Below, one piece after another: positions 12,539 to 39,161 of a DNA stretch of 45,405 bases; position 1 is the stretch's first letter; the number at the start of each line of letters is the position of its first letter. Position numbers and translations under genes: made by a program. The stretch covers positions 1 through 45,405 of the IMG/VR virus record IMGVR_UViG_3300034106_001777. One strand, written 5' to 3'. The stretch comes from a virus. The notes under the pieces were generated by a model. It made no database searches, was not told where the DNA came from, and saw only the letters and a program-made list of their open reading frames with translations.

Positions 12539-12902
12539 TGAGTTCCGAGTCCTCGTCTGCGGAGGCAGAGACTATTCAGACTCCGTTCGACTTAGAAGAG
12601 TACTTGACGCAGTACATGAAGGAGTCCGGAATGCAGAAAAAGTTCTGGTCATCATTCATGGAAACGCACGAGGGGCGGATCTTCTCGCAGATCAATACGC
12701 AAGAGAGAGATCGCTTAAGGTTCTATCATTTCCTGCAGACTGGGCAAATCATGGAAGATCTGCAGGACCAATTCGCAATAAATTAATGTTGACATCTGGG
12801 CAACCGCATGTTATAATAGCTTTTAGAGGTGGTAAAGGTACCGCTGATATGATTCGACAAGGAAAGAAAGCTGGAATTCCAGTATATGAGGTGAAGGAAT
12901 GA
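12528..12902 (+). CDS. SLOG-family (DUF2493, YspA-like) nucleotide-binding protein
   Basis: About 124 residues from the ATG at 12528 (a GTG at 12510 is also in frame; neither start has a good ribosome site). The fold signature is clear: a Rossmann-like start RVLVCGGRDYSD, the ligand loop IIHGNARGADLLA, and WANHGRSAGPIRNKLM with the conserved GP-RN. SLOG proteins bind nucleotides or nucleotide sugars and appear in DprA, LOG and bacterial stress or anti-phage signalling. Its phage role is unknown; reading or degrading a host nucleotide signal is one possibility. A consensus promoter lies inside its 3' half (12789-12817). Confidence 0.75.
   Translation: MDGDEFRVLVCGGRDYSDSVRLRRVLDAVHEGVRNAEKVLVIIHGNARGADLLADQYARERSLKVLSFPADWANHGRSAGPIRNKLMLTSGQPHVIIAFRGGKGTADMIRQGKKAGIPVYEVKE
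12789..12817 (+). promoter_or_regulatory. perfect-consensus sigma70 promoter inside the SLOG gene
   Basis: TTGACA (12789-12794), exactly 17 bases, TATAAT (12812-12817). Both hexamers match the consensus completely, though they lie in coding sequence. It would drive 12899 and the chain of small genes after it. Confidence 0.6.
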
Positions 12903-15983: not shown

Positions 15984-16168
15984 ACTGGTATGAATGGCTT
16001 GGTTATCACAGTATGGATATTGATACAGGTGAAGACTCGCTTGACCTTATGAAGAAAGCATACATCGCAGGGCTTCAAACTGCTTATGACCAAATGTATA
16101 AAAATGAAGATGGCGACTATGACTTCGTTATGTGGCGCTTGAAAAATCTAATAGAGGAAAGCAAATGA
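15980..16168 (+). CDS. small acidic protein
   Basis: 62 residues, helical, with a WYEWLGYHSMD start and DSLDLMKKAYIAGLQTAYDQ in the middle. No family recognised. ATGA overlaps on both sides. Confidence 0.6.
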   Translation: MNWYEWLGYHSMDIDTGEDSLDLMKKAYIAGLQTAYDQMYKNEDGDYDFVMWRLKNLIEESK

Positions 16169-16656
16169 GCAACATGTTGAAATGGGCGGAAGCCGAACTT
16201 AAACTGGCTGGATATGATATTAATGATCCAGAAGATGGACCAAACCGTTGGCTTGCAGAAGGAACGCTTGAGCTTCTCAAAGTGTTCTCAGAACAAGGAC
16301 ACAGCGGTATGTCGGCACCGTATGCAGTAGCTTTGTTTGAGAAGCTCGCATCATGGAAACCTATTGCTCCTTTGACTGGCGAATCTGACGAGTGGACGGA
16401 AGTCAGCGCAGATATGTGGCAGAACAAACGTAACAGTTCTGTCTTTAAGGATGAAGATGGGCGACCATACTGGATGGATGGTCGAGTGTTTTGGGAATGG
16501 TATTCATCGCCAGATATTGACGAAGGTAAACCATATAAGAGCTACTATACGGGTCGTGAAAGCCGAGTGTTTATTGAGTTTCCGTGGACACAACCAGAAA
16601 AGCCTGAGTATGTTTTTGTACCAACAGAACAGTTTCCAAACGAGGTAATCGAATGA
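16165..16656 (+). CDS. conserved phage protein of unknown function
   Basis: 163 residues from the ATG at 16165, chosen because AGAGGAAAG lies just upstream and it overlaps the preceding stop; an in-frame ATG at 16132 lacks both. The motifs EQGHSGMSAPYAVALFEKL and PLTGESDEW are a recurring pattern I recognise from many tailed-phage proteins that have no assigned activity. The C-terminal half is rich in Trp and acidic residues. Confidence 0.7.
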   Translation: MSNMLKWAEAELKLAGYDINDPEDGPNRWLAEGTLELLKVFSEQGHSGMSAPYAVALFEKLASWKPIAPLTGESDEWTEVSADMWQNKRNSSVFKDEDGRPYWMDGRVFWEWYSSPDIDEGKPYKSYYTGRESRVFIEFPWTQPEKPEYVFVPTEQFPNEVIE

Positions 16657-16837: not shown

Positions 16838-17497
16838 ATGCGTGTATACATAGGACCTTATCGCTACCGTTGGATTTCTAAAGTCCATGATCGTTGGATG
16901 GATAGAAAGTACGCCGAGACATGGTGGGATATGGATGAAGACAAGTATACTTGGATGGACAAGTTTACTTACAAACTCGAGAGTGCCCTTCAAACTCTCT
17001 ATAACAAAACTATCAATAAGTATCTTGACAAAGCTCAACGCAAGGTTAAGATCCACGTTGACGGATACGATGTTTGGGGTGCGGATCATACGATCGCAAT
17101 GCTTGTTCATCCTTTGCTGTTGAAGCTGAAAGAGAACAAGCACGGTGCACCTTATGTTGATGATGAGGATGTTCCTGAGCATCTTCGTAGCACTGCTGCA
17201 CCACCAAAAAGGGATGAATGGGACATTGATGATAACCACGAAGCACGTTGGGACTGGGTTCTCGACGAGATGATCTGGGCATTCGAGCAATGCGCAAAGG
17301 ACGACACTGGTGACGATCAATTCTACTCTGGTGAGGTTGATTGGAAGTTTGTAAAAGAAGACGACAAATACTCTAGAATGGAATATGGCCCGAACCATAC
17401 GTTCAAGGTAGACGAAGAAGGTAAGAAAGCTCACTACGATCGCATCAAGAACGGCCACCGACTTTTTGGAAAGTATTATTTTTCACTTTGGGATTAA
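16838..17497 (+). CDS. conserved phage protein of unknown function
   Basis: 219 residues, the largest of the cluster. Hallmarks are VKIHVDGYDVWGADHTIAML and a helical Trp-rich section (WVLDEMIWAFEQC). The sequence pattern is one I associate with many phages of diverse hosts, so it is a real phage protein, but no activity is known to me. It ends the cluster; the next gene has its own Pho-type promoter. Confidence 0.75.
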   Translation: MRVYIGPYRYRWISKVHDRWMDRKYAETWWDMDEDKYTWMDKFTYKLESALQTLYNKTINKYLDKAQRKVKIHVDGYDVWGADHTIAMLVHPLLLKLKENKHGAPYVDDEDVPEHLRSTAAPPKRDEWDIDDNHEARWDWVLDEMIWAFEQCAKDDTGDDQFYSGEVDWKFVKEDDKYSRMEYGPNHTFKVDEEGKKAHYDRIKNGHRLFGKYYFSLWD

Positions 17498-17518
17498 TTT
17501 TACAAAAATTTATTCCAA

Positions 17519-17550
17519 CTGTTATACGATTGTTACATCTTCAATATAAT
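17519..17550 (+). promoter_or_regulatory. PhoB-box-like site and -10 element of the pst operon
   Basis: CTGTTAT (17519-17525), ACGA, TTGTTAC (17530-17536): two 7-base direct repeats spaced by 4, close to the PhoB consensus (CTGTCAT, 4 bases, CTGTCAC). TATAAT follows at 17545-17550, 8 bases after the box, with no TTGACA-like -35. This is the layout of a PhoB-activated promoter. No other promoter in the window looks like this. Confidence 0.6.
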
Positions 17551-17555
17551 ATAGT

Positions 17556-17580: not shown

Positions 17581-17598
17581 TAAACAAAGGAGAATTAT

Positions 17599-18564
17599 AT
17601 GAAAGCTTTACTATCAGCGGCGGCAATTATTGCTTTGGCGTCCACGACTGCGTTTGCAAGAGATAACGTTCAAGTAACAGGATCGTCTACAGTACTACCA
17701 TATGCAACCATTGTCGCAGAGGCATTTGGTGAAAATTTTGATTTTCCGTCGCCAGTAGTTGAAGGTGGTGGTTCGGGTGCAGGCCGTAAGAAGCTCTGCG
17801 AAGGTGTTGGTGAAAACACTGTTGACATCGCAAATAGTTCTTCAAAGATGAAGGATGAAGAAAGAGCCAAGTGTGAAGAAGCAATTGGTGAAGTGACTGA
17901 GGTTCGTATTGGTTATGACGGTATCGTGTTTGCATCGAACATCGATCAACTTAATATCGATAATCTAACAGTCGAACAACTCTATAGCGCTCTACACGAG
18001 TCGAGCACTGCAAAACTCTGGAGTGAAGTCGACTCGACTCTTCCAGAAGTAGCAATCCTTGCATACATTCCAGGTACCAAACACGGCACTCGTGAAGTGT
18101 TCGATGTAAAGGTGATGGAAGAAGGTTGTAAAGCAGCTCTCGGTGTTGAGAAACTCGATGACGATCAAAAGAAAGCTTGTGTGAAAGTAAGAACTGACGG
18201 TGCAGCAGTTGACATCGATGGCGACTACACAGAAACACTTGCTCGTCTTGATGCTAATAAAACATCGCTAGGTGTGTTTGGTCTTAGCTTCTATCAGAAC
18301 AACACTGATAAACTAGAAGTTGCCACGGTAAGTGGCGTGGCACCAAGCGTAGAAACCATCTCAAGCGGTGACTATCCAATCAGCCGTCCACTTTACTTCT
18401 ACGTGAAGAACGCTCACCTCAGCGTCATTCCTGGTCTGAAGGAATACATCGAGTTCTTCGTGAGTGATGAGATGGCAGGTCCTGATGGCGCTCTTGCACA
18501 GTATGGATTGGTTCCAGATCCAGAACTTGCAGCTACTCAGGCTGAAGTTTCTGCTCTTAAATAA
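17599..18564 (+). CDS. pstS: periplasmic phosphate-binding protein PstS
   Basis: 321 residues with a Sec signal peptide (1-20, ending TTAFA). Phosphate-binding regions are recognisable: TGSSTVLPYA (27-36), GGGSGAGRKKLCEG and DIANSSSKMKDEE, then GTKHGTREVFD. PstS binds inorganic phosphate and hands it to the host PstCAB transporter; no pstCAB genes are here, so it must serve a host transporter. Phage pstS is known from cyanophages, where it is induced in phosphate-starved hosts. It has a consensus ribosome site (AAAGGAG) and a Pho-type promoter, and is followed after 2 bases by the PlcP-like gene. Confidence 0.92.
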   Translation: MKALLSAAAIIALASTTAFARDNVQVTGSSTVLPYATIVAEAFGENFDFPSPVVEGGGSGAGRKKLCEGVGENTVDIANSSSKMKDEERAKCEEAIGEVTEVRIGYDGIVFASNIDQLNIDNLTVEQLYSALHESSTAKLWSEVDSTLPEVAILAYIPGTKHGTREVFDVKVMEEGCKAALGVEKLDDDQKKACVKVRTDGAAVDIDGDYTETLARLDANKTSLGVFGLSFYQNNTDKLEVATVSGVAPSVETISSGDYPISRPLYFYVKNAHLSVIPGLKEYIEFFVSDEMAGPDGALAQYGLVPDPELAATQAEVSALK

Positions 18565-18566
18565 GA

Positions 18567-19337
18567 ATGAAATATAAAAGCATCTTCATAAGTGATGTGC
18601 ATTTAGGAACCAGAGGGTGTCAAGCAGACGCCCTCTGTGTTTTCTTAAAAAACAACACAAGCGAAAACCTATTCCTAGTTGGTGATATGCTGGATGGTTG
18701 GCGCTTAAAGAAACGTTGGTACTTTCCACAGAGTCATGCCAATGTGATACGCAGAATACTCACGGCAGCTAAGCGTGGCACTAGAGTAGAATACATATTA
18801 GGTAATCACGATGAAGCAGGCCGTAAGTTTTTAAACTTTGATATCAGCTTCGGTAATATTAAAGTAACTAACAGACAAGACTACATAGGTTTAGACGGCA
18901 AACGTTATCTGGTTATTCATGGTGACTTCTTTGACGTATTGATGCATGATAAAAAATGGTTGATGCACATTGGAGATACTTTGTATGACGCTATGATATA
19001 TGCCAATGTTCAGTTTAATCGAGTAAGAAGTTTGTTTGGTATGGACTATTGGAGTTTAAGTAAATATCTAAAACAGAATACTAAACACGCGTTAAACTTT
19101 ATCAATCGTTACGAAGAACATCTAGCTGCCTATTGTAAGCAACATGGATATGACGGAATAATTTGTGGTCACATTCATCATGCTGAAATAAAAGAAATAA
19201 ATGGTGTTATATACATGAACGATGGCGACTGGGTCGAGAGTGCCACCGCTCTGGTAGAACACTTTGATGGAAGATGGGAGATAGTGCATTATGCCGAAGA
19301 TCTTAATAGTTACAGACAACTTACCGAATCAGATTAA
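18567..19337 (+). CDS. plcP: PlcP-like metallophosphoesterase (phospholipase C type; LpxH relative)
   Basis: 256 residues. Metal sites: D10-x-H12 (FISDVHLG), GD40, GN80-H81-D82, HGD (118-120) and GHIHH (201-205). SDVHLGTRGCQAD, LVGDMLDGW and NDGDWVESATALVEH are typical of the alphaproteobacterial family often annotated UDP-2,3-diacylglucosamine diphosphatase that includes Sinorhizobium PlcP. PlcP splits phosphatidylcholine and related lipids into diacylglycerol and phospho-headgroup during phosphate limitation. Position between pstS and an Agt-like glycosyltransferase is the main reason to prefer PlcP over LpxH. No signal peptide, so it should act at the cytoplasmic membrane face. Substrate is inferred. 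Confidence 0.78.
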   Translation: MKYKSIFISDVHLGTRGCQADALCVFLKNNTSENLFLVGDMLDGWRLKKRWYFPQSHANVIRRILTAAKRGTRVEYILGNHDEAGRKFLNFDISFGNIKVTNRQDYIGLDGKRYLVIHGDFFDVLMHDKKWLMHIGDTLYDAMIYANVQFNRVRSLFGMDYWSLSKYLKQNTKHALNFINRYEEHLAAYCKQHGYDGIICGHIHHAEIKEINGVIYMNDGDWVESATALVEHFDGRWEIVHYAEDLNSYRQLTESD

Positions 19338-20298
19338 TGGTGTGGTTACGACCTACAAAAATATTGAGACGTATGCGATTCGCGACGGTTATACTGTTGA
19401 TTATATTCATCCCGGGATGTACGGCCATATTGATTGCCCAAAGTACAATGAAGTTAAGCTTGCCTGGGCACCTCCTTGGGTTGTTGGGAAAGAGATCAAG
19501 AAGATTGATCCGGATTATATACACATCGCCACAGAAGGTCCTATGGGTATGTCTGCTAGAAGGTATCTTGCAATACGTGGGATTAAGTACAATACTGCTT
19601 ACCATACTAAGTTTCCTGAAGGTGTAAGGACGTTACTAGGAATTCCTGAAGGAATTACTTGGGCAGTTGTGCGCTGGTTCCATAAGAATAGCAATAAGGT
19701 ACTCACTACGACAAAATCAATGGTCGATGAACTTCATGCGCATGGATTTAATAACAATGTTATTCATTGGACTCGAGGAGTTGATAGGGATATATTCAAA
19801 CCGGCAGTGAAAGAACCATGCTCGCACATTAACCTCGTTTGCGTGAGTCGAGTAAGCAAAGAAAAAAATCTGGAAGCTTTTCTTGAGATAAACTACCCCA
19901 ATGCAGTTAAAACTATCGTAGGCGATGGTCCTATGTTAGAAACATACAAGAAGCAATATCCTTACGTGAACTTTGTAGGTGCCAAACGTGGTGCTGAACT
20001 CGCGCATTATTATCAACAGGCTGATGTTTTTGTGTTTCCTAGTCGTTGGGATACATTTGGATTGGTGATGATTGAGGCAATGGCATGCGGTACTCCGGTC
20101 GCTGCTTATCCTGTGCAAGGACCATTAGACGTAATAGATCAAGATGTAACTGGTTATATGGATGAGGATATCACTATCGCTATTAAAAAATCTCTTGACC
20201 TCGATAGAGAATCAGTATACAAATTCAGCATGAAATGGGATTGGGGAAACGCTTGGAACATTTTTCGAGACAATCTTATAAACTGTAAAACTAACTAG
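19291..20298 (+). CDS. GT4 glycosyltransferase, Agt-like (diacylglycerol glycosylation candidate)
   Basis: 335 residues, GT-B fold. The N-terminal domain starts KILIVTDNLPNQINGVVTT and has HIATEGPMGMSARRYL and AYHTKFPE, as in the glycosyltransferase that accompanies plcP in alphaproteobacteria. The C-terminal sugar-nucleotide domain shows VSRVSKEKN, IVGDGPML and the donor motif D254-x7-E262 (DTFGLVMIEAMACGTPV). In Agrobacterium, Agt adds glucose or glucuronate from UDP-sugars to diacylglycerol. The gene overlaps the PlcP-like gene by 47 bases, with GGGAG before its ATG, so the two proteins are made together. Another acceptor is possible. Confidence 0.8.
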   Translation: MPKILIVTDNLPNQINGVVTTYKNIETYAIRDGYTVDYIHPGMYGHIDCPKYNEVKLAWAPPWVVGKEIKKIDPDYIHIATEGPMGMSARRYLAIRGIKYNTAYHTKFPEGVRTLLGIPEGITWAVVRWFHKNSNKVLTTTKSMVDELHAHGFNNNVIHWTRGVDRDIFKPAVKEPCSHINLVCVSRVSKEKNLEAFLEINYPNAVKTIVGDGPMLETYKKQYPYVNFVGAKRGAELAHYYQQADVFVFPSRWDTFGLVMIEAMACGTPVAAYPVQGPLDVIDQDVTGYMDEDITIAIKKSLDLDRESVYKFSMKWDWGNAWNIFRDNLINCKTN

Positions 20299-20308
20299 AG
20301 GATAAACC

Positions 20309-21067
20309 ATGATTGTACTATTAGGATACGGCTTCGTTGGTAAAGCTCACTATAAAGCGTTTAGCCCTCATCACGAAATGTCTATCGTAGATCCGGCCTT
20401 CAGCAATATTCGTATCAAAGACATAGAAAACATTAGTGGTGCTATCGTCTGTGTTTCGACTCCATCATCTGAAGATGGAAGCTGTGATATGAGCATAATC
20501 TATAATGTAATTCAAGACATTCCAAAAGAAGCTCCAATTCTCATTAAGAGCACGATATCGATGGAGGGATGGGAAACTCTCGAAAGAAACTTTCCTGAAC
20601 ACTCCATCACATTTAGTCCAGAATTTCTTCGAGCTGCAAGCGCAGACGACGACCTTAAGAACCTCACTCATGCGTTCTTGGCTGGCGGTAACGTTCAATA
20701 CTGGTTAGATTTTTACACGACGGTGTATCCAGACATCAGCATAACTGTATGTAAGCCAAAGCACGCAATTGCCATCAAGTATTTTCGAAACTCGTTTCTT
20801 GCGGCAAAGTGTAGCTTCTTCAACGAGATCTACGATTTCTGTGAAACGCTCGGATTGGATTACGAGTCGGTTCGCTCTGGTGTCACGTTAGACTCTCGTA
20901 TCGGTGAGAGCCATACTTTTGTAAATGAGAACGATAGAGGCTGGGGCGGAGCGTGTTTTCCAAAGGATACCGCGGCGATTCTGCAGACGGCAAAGAACTC
21001 AGGCGTCGAGCTACAGACGCTAGAAGCTGCCGTAAAATATAATGAGTCTGTTCGAAAAAAAGTTTAA
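20309..21067 (+). CDS. short UDP-glucose 6-dehydrogenase-like protein
   Basis: 252 residues against about 430 for the usual enzyme. The NAD-binding Rossmann start LLGYGFVGKA (4-13), the VCVSTPSSEDGSCDMS loop, the central helix with KYFRNSFLAAKCSFFNE, and the catalytic Cys216 in GGACFPKD are all present. The C-terminal UDP-sugar-binding domain is missing; the protein ends soon after the central helix and there is no frameshift signature. The full enzyme oxidises UDP-glucose to UDP-glucuronate. If active it could feed the Agt-like enzyme and the UDP-glucuronate 4-epimerase at 31534. It starts 10 bases after the glycosyltransferase gene with AGAGGATAA as ribosome site. Confidence 0.8.
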   Translation: MIVLLGYGFVGKAHYKAFSPHHEMSIVDPAFSNIRIKDIENISGAIVCVSTPSSEDGSCDMSIIYNVIQDIPKEAPILIKSTISMEGWETLERNFPEHSITFSPEFLRAASADDDLKNLTHAFLAGGNVQYWLDFYTTVYPDISITVCKPKHAIAIKYFRNSFLAAKCSFFNEIYDFCETLGLDYESVRSGVTLDSRIGESHTFVNENDRGWGGACFPKDTAAILQTAKNSGVELQTLEAAVKYNESVRKKV

Positions 21068-22152: not shown

Positions 22153-23101
22153 ACCTGATCGCTATGACTTTAACACTAAAGCTGAGTATGAAGCAGCACT
22201 AAATCAATATAATGAACGTAAAAGGAAAATGAAAATGAATGCTATCGTTGGTGGAACTATCGCTACTGTCGTCGGTCTTACTGCACTGACTGTAATTGGC
22301 GGATCGTGGTATACTGTTGATGAAGGTTACCGTGGTGTAACTCTTCGTAACGGTGCCGTGGTTGGTACTGCAGAACCAGGTCTTGGATTTAAAATCCCTT
22401 TGATCGAAAAGGTGGTTGATATTTCTGTTCAATCACAGGCTCAGTTGTACGAGAACATCCTTGCTTACTCTCGTGATCAACAGACTGCGGGTCTAAACCT
22501 GTCTGTTAACTATCGCTTCCCTGCAGATCAAGTTGAGACGATCTATCGTGAATATGGTGGCGAAGCTGGCGTGATCTCTCGCTTGCTTGATCGTCAGGTT
22601 CTTGAAGAAGTCAAGAACGTCTTTGGTAAGTTCAACGCAGCAACCGCTATTCAGGAACGTGAACGTCTTGCTGCAGAAGTTCAGATGGCAATCCAGAAAG
22701 CTGTAATTGGTCCTATCATCGTTGAGTCGGTTCAAATTGAGAACATCGACTTCTCTGATGCTTATGAACAATCGATTGAAGCTCGTATGCTTGCAGAAGT
22801 CGAAGTGCAAAAGGTTCGGCAGAACGCAGAACGTGAAAAGGTTCAGGCTGAGATCGTCGTGACTCAGGCACAGGCACAAGCCGACGCTCAACTAGCTCAA
22901 GCAGTTGCGGCCGCAGAAGCAACTCGTATTCAAGGTGAAGCAGAAGCAAGCGCGATTAAGGCGAAAGCAGAAGCTCTGAAGGATAACGCAGGTTTGATTG
23001 CTCTAGTTCAAGCTGAAAAGTGGAACGGTGCTCTTCCTACCACTATGATCCCAGACTCGACTGTTCCATTCATGGACGTTGTTGCTAAGCCAGCCCAGTA
23101 A
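22145..23101 (+). CDS. SPFH/prohibitin-family membrane protein
   Basis: 318 residues. A cytoplasmic start (1-30), one membrane helix (about 33-55), the SPFH/PHB domain (VDEGYRGVTLRNGAV, GLGFKIPLIEKVVDISVQ), then a long Ala/Glu/Gln coiled coil (about 195-285) and a C-terminal part with LPTTMIPDS. Prohibitin/HflC-like proteins form ring or cage assemblies that organise membranes and control the FtsH protease. T4-like phages of several hosts carry such genes; modulation of host FtsH or of the membrane is a reasonable guess. A strong terminator follows. Confidence 0.9.
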   Translation: MFKPDRYDFNTKAEYEAALNQYNERKRKMKMNAIVGGTIATVVGLTALTVIGGSWYTVDEGYRGVTLRNGAVVGTAEPGLGFKIPLIEKVVDISVQSQAQLYENILAYSRDQQTAGLNLSVNYRFPADQVETIYREYGGEAGVISRLLDRQVLEEVKNVFGKFNAATAIQERERLAAEVQMAIQKAVIGPIIVESVQIENIDFSDAYEQSIEARMLAEVEVQKVRQNAEREKVQAEIVVTQAQAQADAQLAQAVAAAEATRIQGEAEASAIKAKAEALKDNAGLIALVQAEKWNGALPTTMIPDSTVPFMDVVAKPAQ

Positions 23102-38411: not shown

Positions 38412-39161
38412 ATGGTAGTATCACGTCGTCTATCTCGAAAAGAAAAAAGAAGACATGAAAGAAATCTAGATAATATAGTGAACGTAGTTAATCAGAAGTT
38501 CACAATGAAAAAGATACAACCAATTACTTCAACTCAAGAGATGCTATTCGACGATTATAAACAAGGATACAACATAGCGGCCATCGGAACAGCAGGAACA
38601 GGTAAAACAATGTGTGCTCTCTATCTCGCGTTGAACGACGTGATGGAGACAAAGAACTACGAAAAGGTCATAGTCATTCGATCTGCGGTTCAGACTCGCG
38701 ATCAAGGATTTATGCCAGGTAGTCTTAAGGAAAAAATAGCATACTATGAGACGCCATATATAGATATAGTAAACGATTTGTTTGGAAGATCTGATGGCTA
38801 TAGCATTATGAAACAGCAAGGATGCATCGAATTCATGAGCTCTTCGTTTGTTCGTGGTCTTACTTTCGATAACTCAGTCATCGTAGTTGACGAATGCCAG
38901 AACATGACATACGAAGAAATAAGATCAATTATGACTCGTGTTGGCGAGTCTTCTAAGATTATTTTCTGTGGTGATACGAAGCAGGACGACCTTCGAAATT
39001 CTAAGAACCGATTGGATCGCTCTGGACTATCGAGCTTTATCAATGTGTTGAAAGAGATAAGAGAGTTTAAAACGATAGAATTCACAGTCGATGACATCGT
39101 AAGATCTGGTCTCGTGAAGTCGTTTATCCTCGCAGAAGAAAAAGTTTTAGACTACGCGTAA
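38412..39161 (+). CDS. phoH: PhoH-like ATPase
   Basis: 249 residues. Walker A GTAGTGKT (59-66), Walker B VIVVDECQNM, and the PhoH marks IRSAVQTRDQGFMPGSLKEK and IFCGDTKQDDL. A basic N-terminal extension (SRRLSRKEKRRHER) precedes the domain. PhoH is frequent in marine phages, including those with pstS, but its role is not settled (RNA-associated ATPase or Pho-regulon protein). No Pho box is visible near it, so a link to phosphate is by name and distant context only. Confidence 0.9.
   Translation: MVVSRRLSRKEKRRHERNLDNIVNVVNQKFTMKKIQPITSTQEMLFDDYKQGYNIAAIGTAGTGKTMCALYLALNDVMETKNYEKVIVIRSAVQTRDQGFMPGSLKEKIAYYETPYIDIVNDLFGRSDGYSIMKQQGCIEFMSSSFVRGLTFDNSVIVVDECQNMTYEEIRSIMTRVGESSKIIFCGDTKQDDLRNSKNRLDRSGLSSFINVLKEIREFKTIEFTVDDIVRSGLVKSFILAEEKVLDYA

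Follow-up and report, generated by a model that had tools for sequence, protein, structure and literature searches.

Host control over a phage-borne phosphate gene has been described in cyanophages, where pstS of Prochlorococcus phage P-SSM2 and of Synechococcus phages is controlled by the host PhoBR system, and where the cyanobacterial Pho box reads YTTAAYY[T/A] (PMC10976474). The E. coli Pho box, CTGTCATN4CTGTCAT, is built of two 7-nt direct repeats set 4 nt apart (PMC4415409, PMC8528852). In Pseudomonas, Pho boxes lie upstream of the plcP and agt genes, whose products respond to phosphate stress by turning phospholipids into glycolipids with the help of UDP-glucose or UDP-glucuronate (PMC8528852).

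The viral DNA analysed here (IMG/VR record IMGVR_UViG_3300034106_001777, 45,405 nucleotides, all of which we call the window) carries a pstS gene preceded by a Pho box and followed by a predicted lipid operon (Table 1). As in the cyanophages, a phage pstS would be read by the host phosphate two-component system; in contrast to them, the box is of the proteobacterial type, the host phylum differs, and the window has linked lipid genes, which are not seen in the available text of PMC10976474. The first-pass annotation had drawn the parallel with cyanophage pstS; it holds for the principle of host PhoB control and is limited to this principle because the cyanobacterial box has a different sequence. 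We put at roughly 0.85 the probability that phosphorylated host PhoB activates both phosphate capture and the replacement of phospholipids by glycolipids during infection. From the sequence we infer PhoB binding, induction, co-transcription, the enzyme activities and the benefit to the phage.

Table 1. Features of the pstS promoter and the genes behind it (window coordinates)
Feature	Position	Strand	Remarks
Upstream half-sites ATTTTAC, aaaa, ATTTATT	17497..17514	+	ATTTTAC 17497-17503, ATTTATT 17508-17514; weaker; 11-bp phase shared with the box
Pho box CTGTTAT-acga-TTGTTAC	17519..17536	+	CTGTTAT 17519-17525, acga 17526-17529, TTGTTAC 17530-17536; two 7-nt direct repeats, 11-bp period; top host-matrix score; conserved in viral pstS promoters
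Spacer atcttcaa	17537..17544		between the box and TATAAT
-10 region	17545..17552	+	TATAAT at +8 (17545-17550) or TAATAT at +10 (17547-17552) after the box
Probable pstS ribosome-binding site	17589..17594	+	purine-rich aaggagaat stretch; predicted from sequence
pstS, periplasmic phosphate-binding protein	17599..18564	+	Pfam PF12849, E 8e-54; viral clade in tree
PlcP-like metallophosphoesterase	18567..19337	+	PF00149; starts 2 nt past the pstS stop
Terminator-like hairpin	18611..18637	+	11-bp, T-rich stretch after; in the plcP 5' coding region
Agt-like GT4 glycosyltransferase	19291..20298	+	PF00534/PF13439; start overlaps the plcP end
Putative short UDP-glucose dehydrogenase (ugd)	20309..21067	+	PF00984, PF03721; phrog_9148, E 5e-36; GGACFPKD motif in translation

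The box sits in the 101-nt gap between a gene without assigned function (16838-17497) and pstS, 62 nt upstream of the pstS start. The architecture that the first-pass annotation had read from the letters, namely two repeats with a 4-nt spacer, 8 nt before a perfect TATAAT and without a -35 hexamer, was confirmed base for base. The repeats have the CTGTCAT-like sequence and the 11-bp period of a proteobacterial Pho box, with T in place of the E. coli C at position 5 of both; T is also the commonest base there in the downstream repeat of viral promoters. No TTGACA-like hexamer was found 16-18 nt before either candidate -10, a stretch that is filled by the box itself. In geometry the site matches PhoB-dependent sigma-70 promoters, in which the box replaces the -35 about 10 nt before the -10. 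The weaker half-sites upstream, which may also be bound, recur in equal phase in five related loci (L003, L004, L007, L015 and L036) and give a weak signal in columns -33..-27 and -22..-17. The annotation had further stated that the other recognisable promoters of the window carry TTGACA or TTTACA; by and large this applies to the best matches, but a consensus scan is circular here and its totals lie near the shuffled expectation. A perfect TTGACA-17-TATAAT promoter, with TG ahead of the -10, is present at 12789-12817 (+).

A scan for Pho boxes, which the first-pass annotation had proposed, singled out this site both by matrix in the window and by degenerate pattern in a larger record. A first scan, with simple weights that we set ourselves from the known consensus, scored the site at 17519 best among all window positions. 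Because these weights were our own, a second matrix was built exclusively from the best sites of 28 cellular pstS upstream regions (alphaproteobacterial, mostly from Rhodobacterales, with relatives). With this matrix the site scored 18.4 and ranked first of ~90,800 window positions (runner-up, 14.5), and a score of 18.4 or more was reached in 0 of 30 first-order Markov windows. The score falls inside the 14.2-22.7 range of the training sites, matching the boxes of related cellular phosphate genes. The training sites had been chosen with the first weights, a mild circularity; nevertheless, each of the 27 non-redundant cellular upstream regions outscored its shuffled versions (p at most 0.005). 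No other strong Pho box was found in the window, including before the start of the PhoH-like gene (38412-39161): the next-best matches, at 22218, 2881 and 24880, have far lower scores than the site and seem to fall within predicted coding regions.

In a 218 kb record (G001) whose pstS is identical to that of the window, the pattern YTGTYAYN4YTGTYAY occurs once, at the pstS promoter, and the reversed-pattern control does not occur; when two mismatches were allowed, pattern and control gave 52 occurrences each. Since there is a single exact occurrence in 218 kb, the pattern does not mark a class of promoters in this phage, and assignment to a phage middle-promoter class was rejected. The possibility that the repeats match a Pho box by chance, beside an ordinary promoter whose -10 is good, could draw on their three mismatches in 14 to the strict E. 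coli consensus; it is nevertheless refuted statistically by the unique pattern in G001, the host-matrix rank and the enrichment in viral and cellular promoters described below, and we regard its probability as negligible.

Viral contigs yielded 80 pstS loci (60-100% identity), from which 49 non-redundant upstream regions, without near-copies, were kept. A score of 10 or more was found in 82% of these, versus 1.4% of 424 control regions taken from these loci upstream of ORFs other than pstS (Mann-Whitney p 2e-24, a value that overstates independence because the sequences are related, although the contrast with the same-locus controls is still large). When the rows were anchored on the downstream half-site and the -10 only, the upstream half-site emerged 11 bp earlier (T in 98% at -8, A in 96% at -6). 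The locus L086, with pstS and plcP in the same tight order as in the window, carries a box of its own with a different spelling (score 15.0, and TATACT at +10), and about one-sixth of the viral pstS genes (for example L019, L022, L048, L049 and L077) have no recognisable box. The record named Acinetobacter phage MD-2021a (L084) contains a chromosomal-looking pstSCAB operon by aroP and ipdC, and may be host DNA. As most related phages have retained the switch, the genes are probably induced by the phosphate alarm of the infected cell, and the phages that keep it appear to form a broad group infecting alphaproteobacteria, which is new as far as the searched literature shows.

In 42 viral promoters, an offset of 10 nt from the second repeat gave the best -10 (3.9/6 matches on average, versus 3.3 at 8 nt and 2.3 +/- 0.2 when shuffled); a -10 beginning 10 nt past the box is the geometry of PhoB promoters. 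Since the relatives favour this spacing, TAATAT is an alternative to TATAAT in the window. In T4-like phages, activator boxes stand in place of the -35, and this precedent could be taken to suggest a phage-specific middle or late element that serves a phage activator and resembles a Pho box by accident. Against this, the box goes with pstS in many different phages and in bacteria; we consider such an element highly improbable.

The same box was found at the closest cellular pstS genes in 27/27 cases. The nearest cellular PstS proteins come from Rhodobacterales and some Rhizobiales, and the window PstS is ~60-65% identical to cellular PstS; judged solely from this similarity, the host is probably an alphaproteobacterium of the Rhodobacterales. 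In a maximum-likelihood tree the window PstS falls in a highly supported group of 28-30 rows, all of them viral, and four cellular sequences lie inside a wider viral-rich clade. Phage and alphaproteobacterial pstS promoters share the repeats, the 11-bp period and similar distances to the -10 and to the gene; they differ in the -10, which is CATAAG or CAAAAG in cells and TATAAT-like in phages (base composition could explain part of this), and the phage operon lacks pstCAB. The phage form of the -10 may make the promoter stronger or leakier than that of the host, and a near-consensus TATAAT could permit PhoB-independent transcription, which is a point against PhoB dependence. Viral PstS is related to cellular PstS and the two have the box in common, as would be expected if pstS had been acquired together with a host promoter whose box is now out of use; yet the box persists while the flanking upstream DNA has diverged among the 49 representatives, and the -10 is unlike the host form, making such a relic very unlikely. 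The proposal of host PhoB control in the first-pass annotation is supported at the sequence level by the nearest cellular promoters, the contrast between viral promoters and controls, and the fixed 11-bp repeat with 10-nt spacing to the -10, and the promoter is very probably controlled by PhoB.

The first gene product scores above the cut-off of PF12849 and thus belongs to the PBP-like phosphate-binding family; TIGR02136 was matched with E 1e-45 but at 156 bits, under its 206.6 cut-off. The functions of the next two genes are predicted from family resemblance. The PlcP-like protein, a calcineurin-like phosphoesterase by its PF00149 match, is 46% identical to a Rhizobium protein (LpxH was rejected as its identity, with scores below the curated NCBIfam cut-offs), and the Agt-like protein matches GT4 domains but falls far under the cut-off of the glucosyl-diacylglycerol synthase model. 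The putative short UDP-glucose dehydrogenase has the N-terminal and central domains and the GGACFPKD motif, no C-terminal domain having been found, and is a possible source of UDP-glucuronate. Given the Pseudomonas PlcP-Agt pathway, with its phosphate-stress role and Pho boxes, the phage gene combination is functionally coherent, on predicted activities. Like the PlcP-Agt operons of Pseudomonas and marine bacteria (PMC8528852), the window has PlcP-like and Agt-like genes side by side in a context of phosphate stress; unlike them, its genes are phage-borne, lie behind pstS and are joined by the short dehydrogenase, with activities that are predicted.

Many viral contigs carry a plcP-agt pair, in some cases near pstS, but most viral plcP genes have no box of their own, 7/46 reaching the threshold. 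Repeats that resemble a Pho box (RTGTAAC acaa CTGTAAC and the like) occur 24-36 nt before the plcP start in L146, L153, L090 and L164. A search for plcP in 16 cellular genomes gave matches in three only (31-46% identity), so that a close cellular source was not found among those 16. In Pelagibacter phage Mosig EXVC030M (MT647606), PstS (41% identity) and a PlcP-like protein (56% identity) are likewise encoded by neighbours, but the two genes are divergent, unlike in the window. No proteobacterial Pho box was found in the Mosig intergenic region, only YTTAAC-type repeats (L083:3845-3994), possibly another form of Pho box. Elsewhere in the window, the protein encoded at 16132-16656, two genes ahead of the Pho-box promoter, matches Tad3, an inhibitor of Thoeris defence (PF25185, E 7e-39). 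The window was also searched for tRNAs and against Rfam, without a match.

The lipid genes are likely to be co-transcribed with pstS because of the gene spacing. However, the hairpin at the start of plcP may lower the expression of genes beyond pstS, and could stop most transcripts after it. Its stability exceeds that of synonymous-codon shuffles in the window (z -5.1) and in L086, L090, L094, L096, L102, L106 and L107 (the register being shifted in L094, L106 and L107), but not in the majority of distant relatives (p<0.05 in 11/46), and compensatory changes are weak (4 pairs vs 1.7 expected by shuffling). It is thus conceivable, although we think it unlikely, that the PhoB box governs pstS only, with most transcription ending at this strong hairpin and its T-rich tail, and the lipid genes being expressed by read-through or from another promoter. 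The 2-nt gap between pstS and plcP and the overlap of plcP with agt speak against this, translation of plcP, if active, could keep the hairpin from forming, and the hairpin is also found in L090 and L102, where plcP does not follow pstS in the stretch examined.

The reading that we favour, in which host PhoB drives the whole operon, would work as follows. Positions 17497-17552 would form a PhoB-dependent sigma-70 promoter; in an alphaproteobacterial host short of phosphate, PhoR would phosphorylate PhoB, and PhoB dimers on the 11-bp-phased repeats would stand in for the absent -35 contact, recruiting RNA polymerase to the -10. Transcription would start with pstS, leading to greater phosphate capture via the host PstCAB, and would probably run on into plcP, agt and ugd. 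PlcP would then strip phosphate head groups off phospholipids, Agt would add a sugar cap to the resulting diacylglycerol, for which Ugd could provide UDP-glucuronate, and the freed phosphate would go into phage DNA synthesis. More tentatively, and with somewhat less than even odds, many diverse alphaproteobacterial phages put pstS under host PhoB, some of them adding a complete phospholipid-to-glycolipid pathway with sugar-nucleotide supply, such that the membrane of the starving cell serves as a phosphate store for phage DNA and the intragenic hairpin sets how much transporter is made relative to the lipid enzymes.

Host PhoB control of cyanophage pstS was already known; what is new, as far as the literature shows, is a box of the proteobacterial type in a broad group of phages, together with the lipid operon linked to it. 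Our open-literature search found no phages with a box of the proteobacterial type and no phage lipid-renovation operon under one; for phage plcP or phage-encoded lipid remodelling it returned nothing relevant, which is weak evidence, as subscription papers were outside its scope. These results extend the control of phage genes by host PhoB beyond the cyanophages, to alphaproteobacterial phages, with another box sequence and good statistics, and tie it to the replacement of membrane lipids. They predict that phage infection of phosphate-starved alphaproteobacteria should alter membrane lipids and release phosphate, a release that would bear on phosphorus cycling in water.
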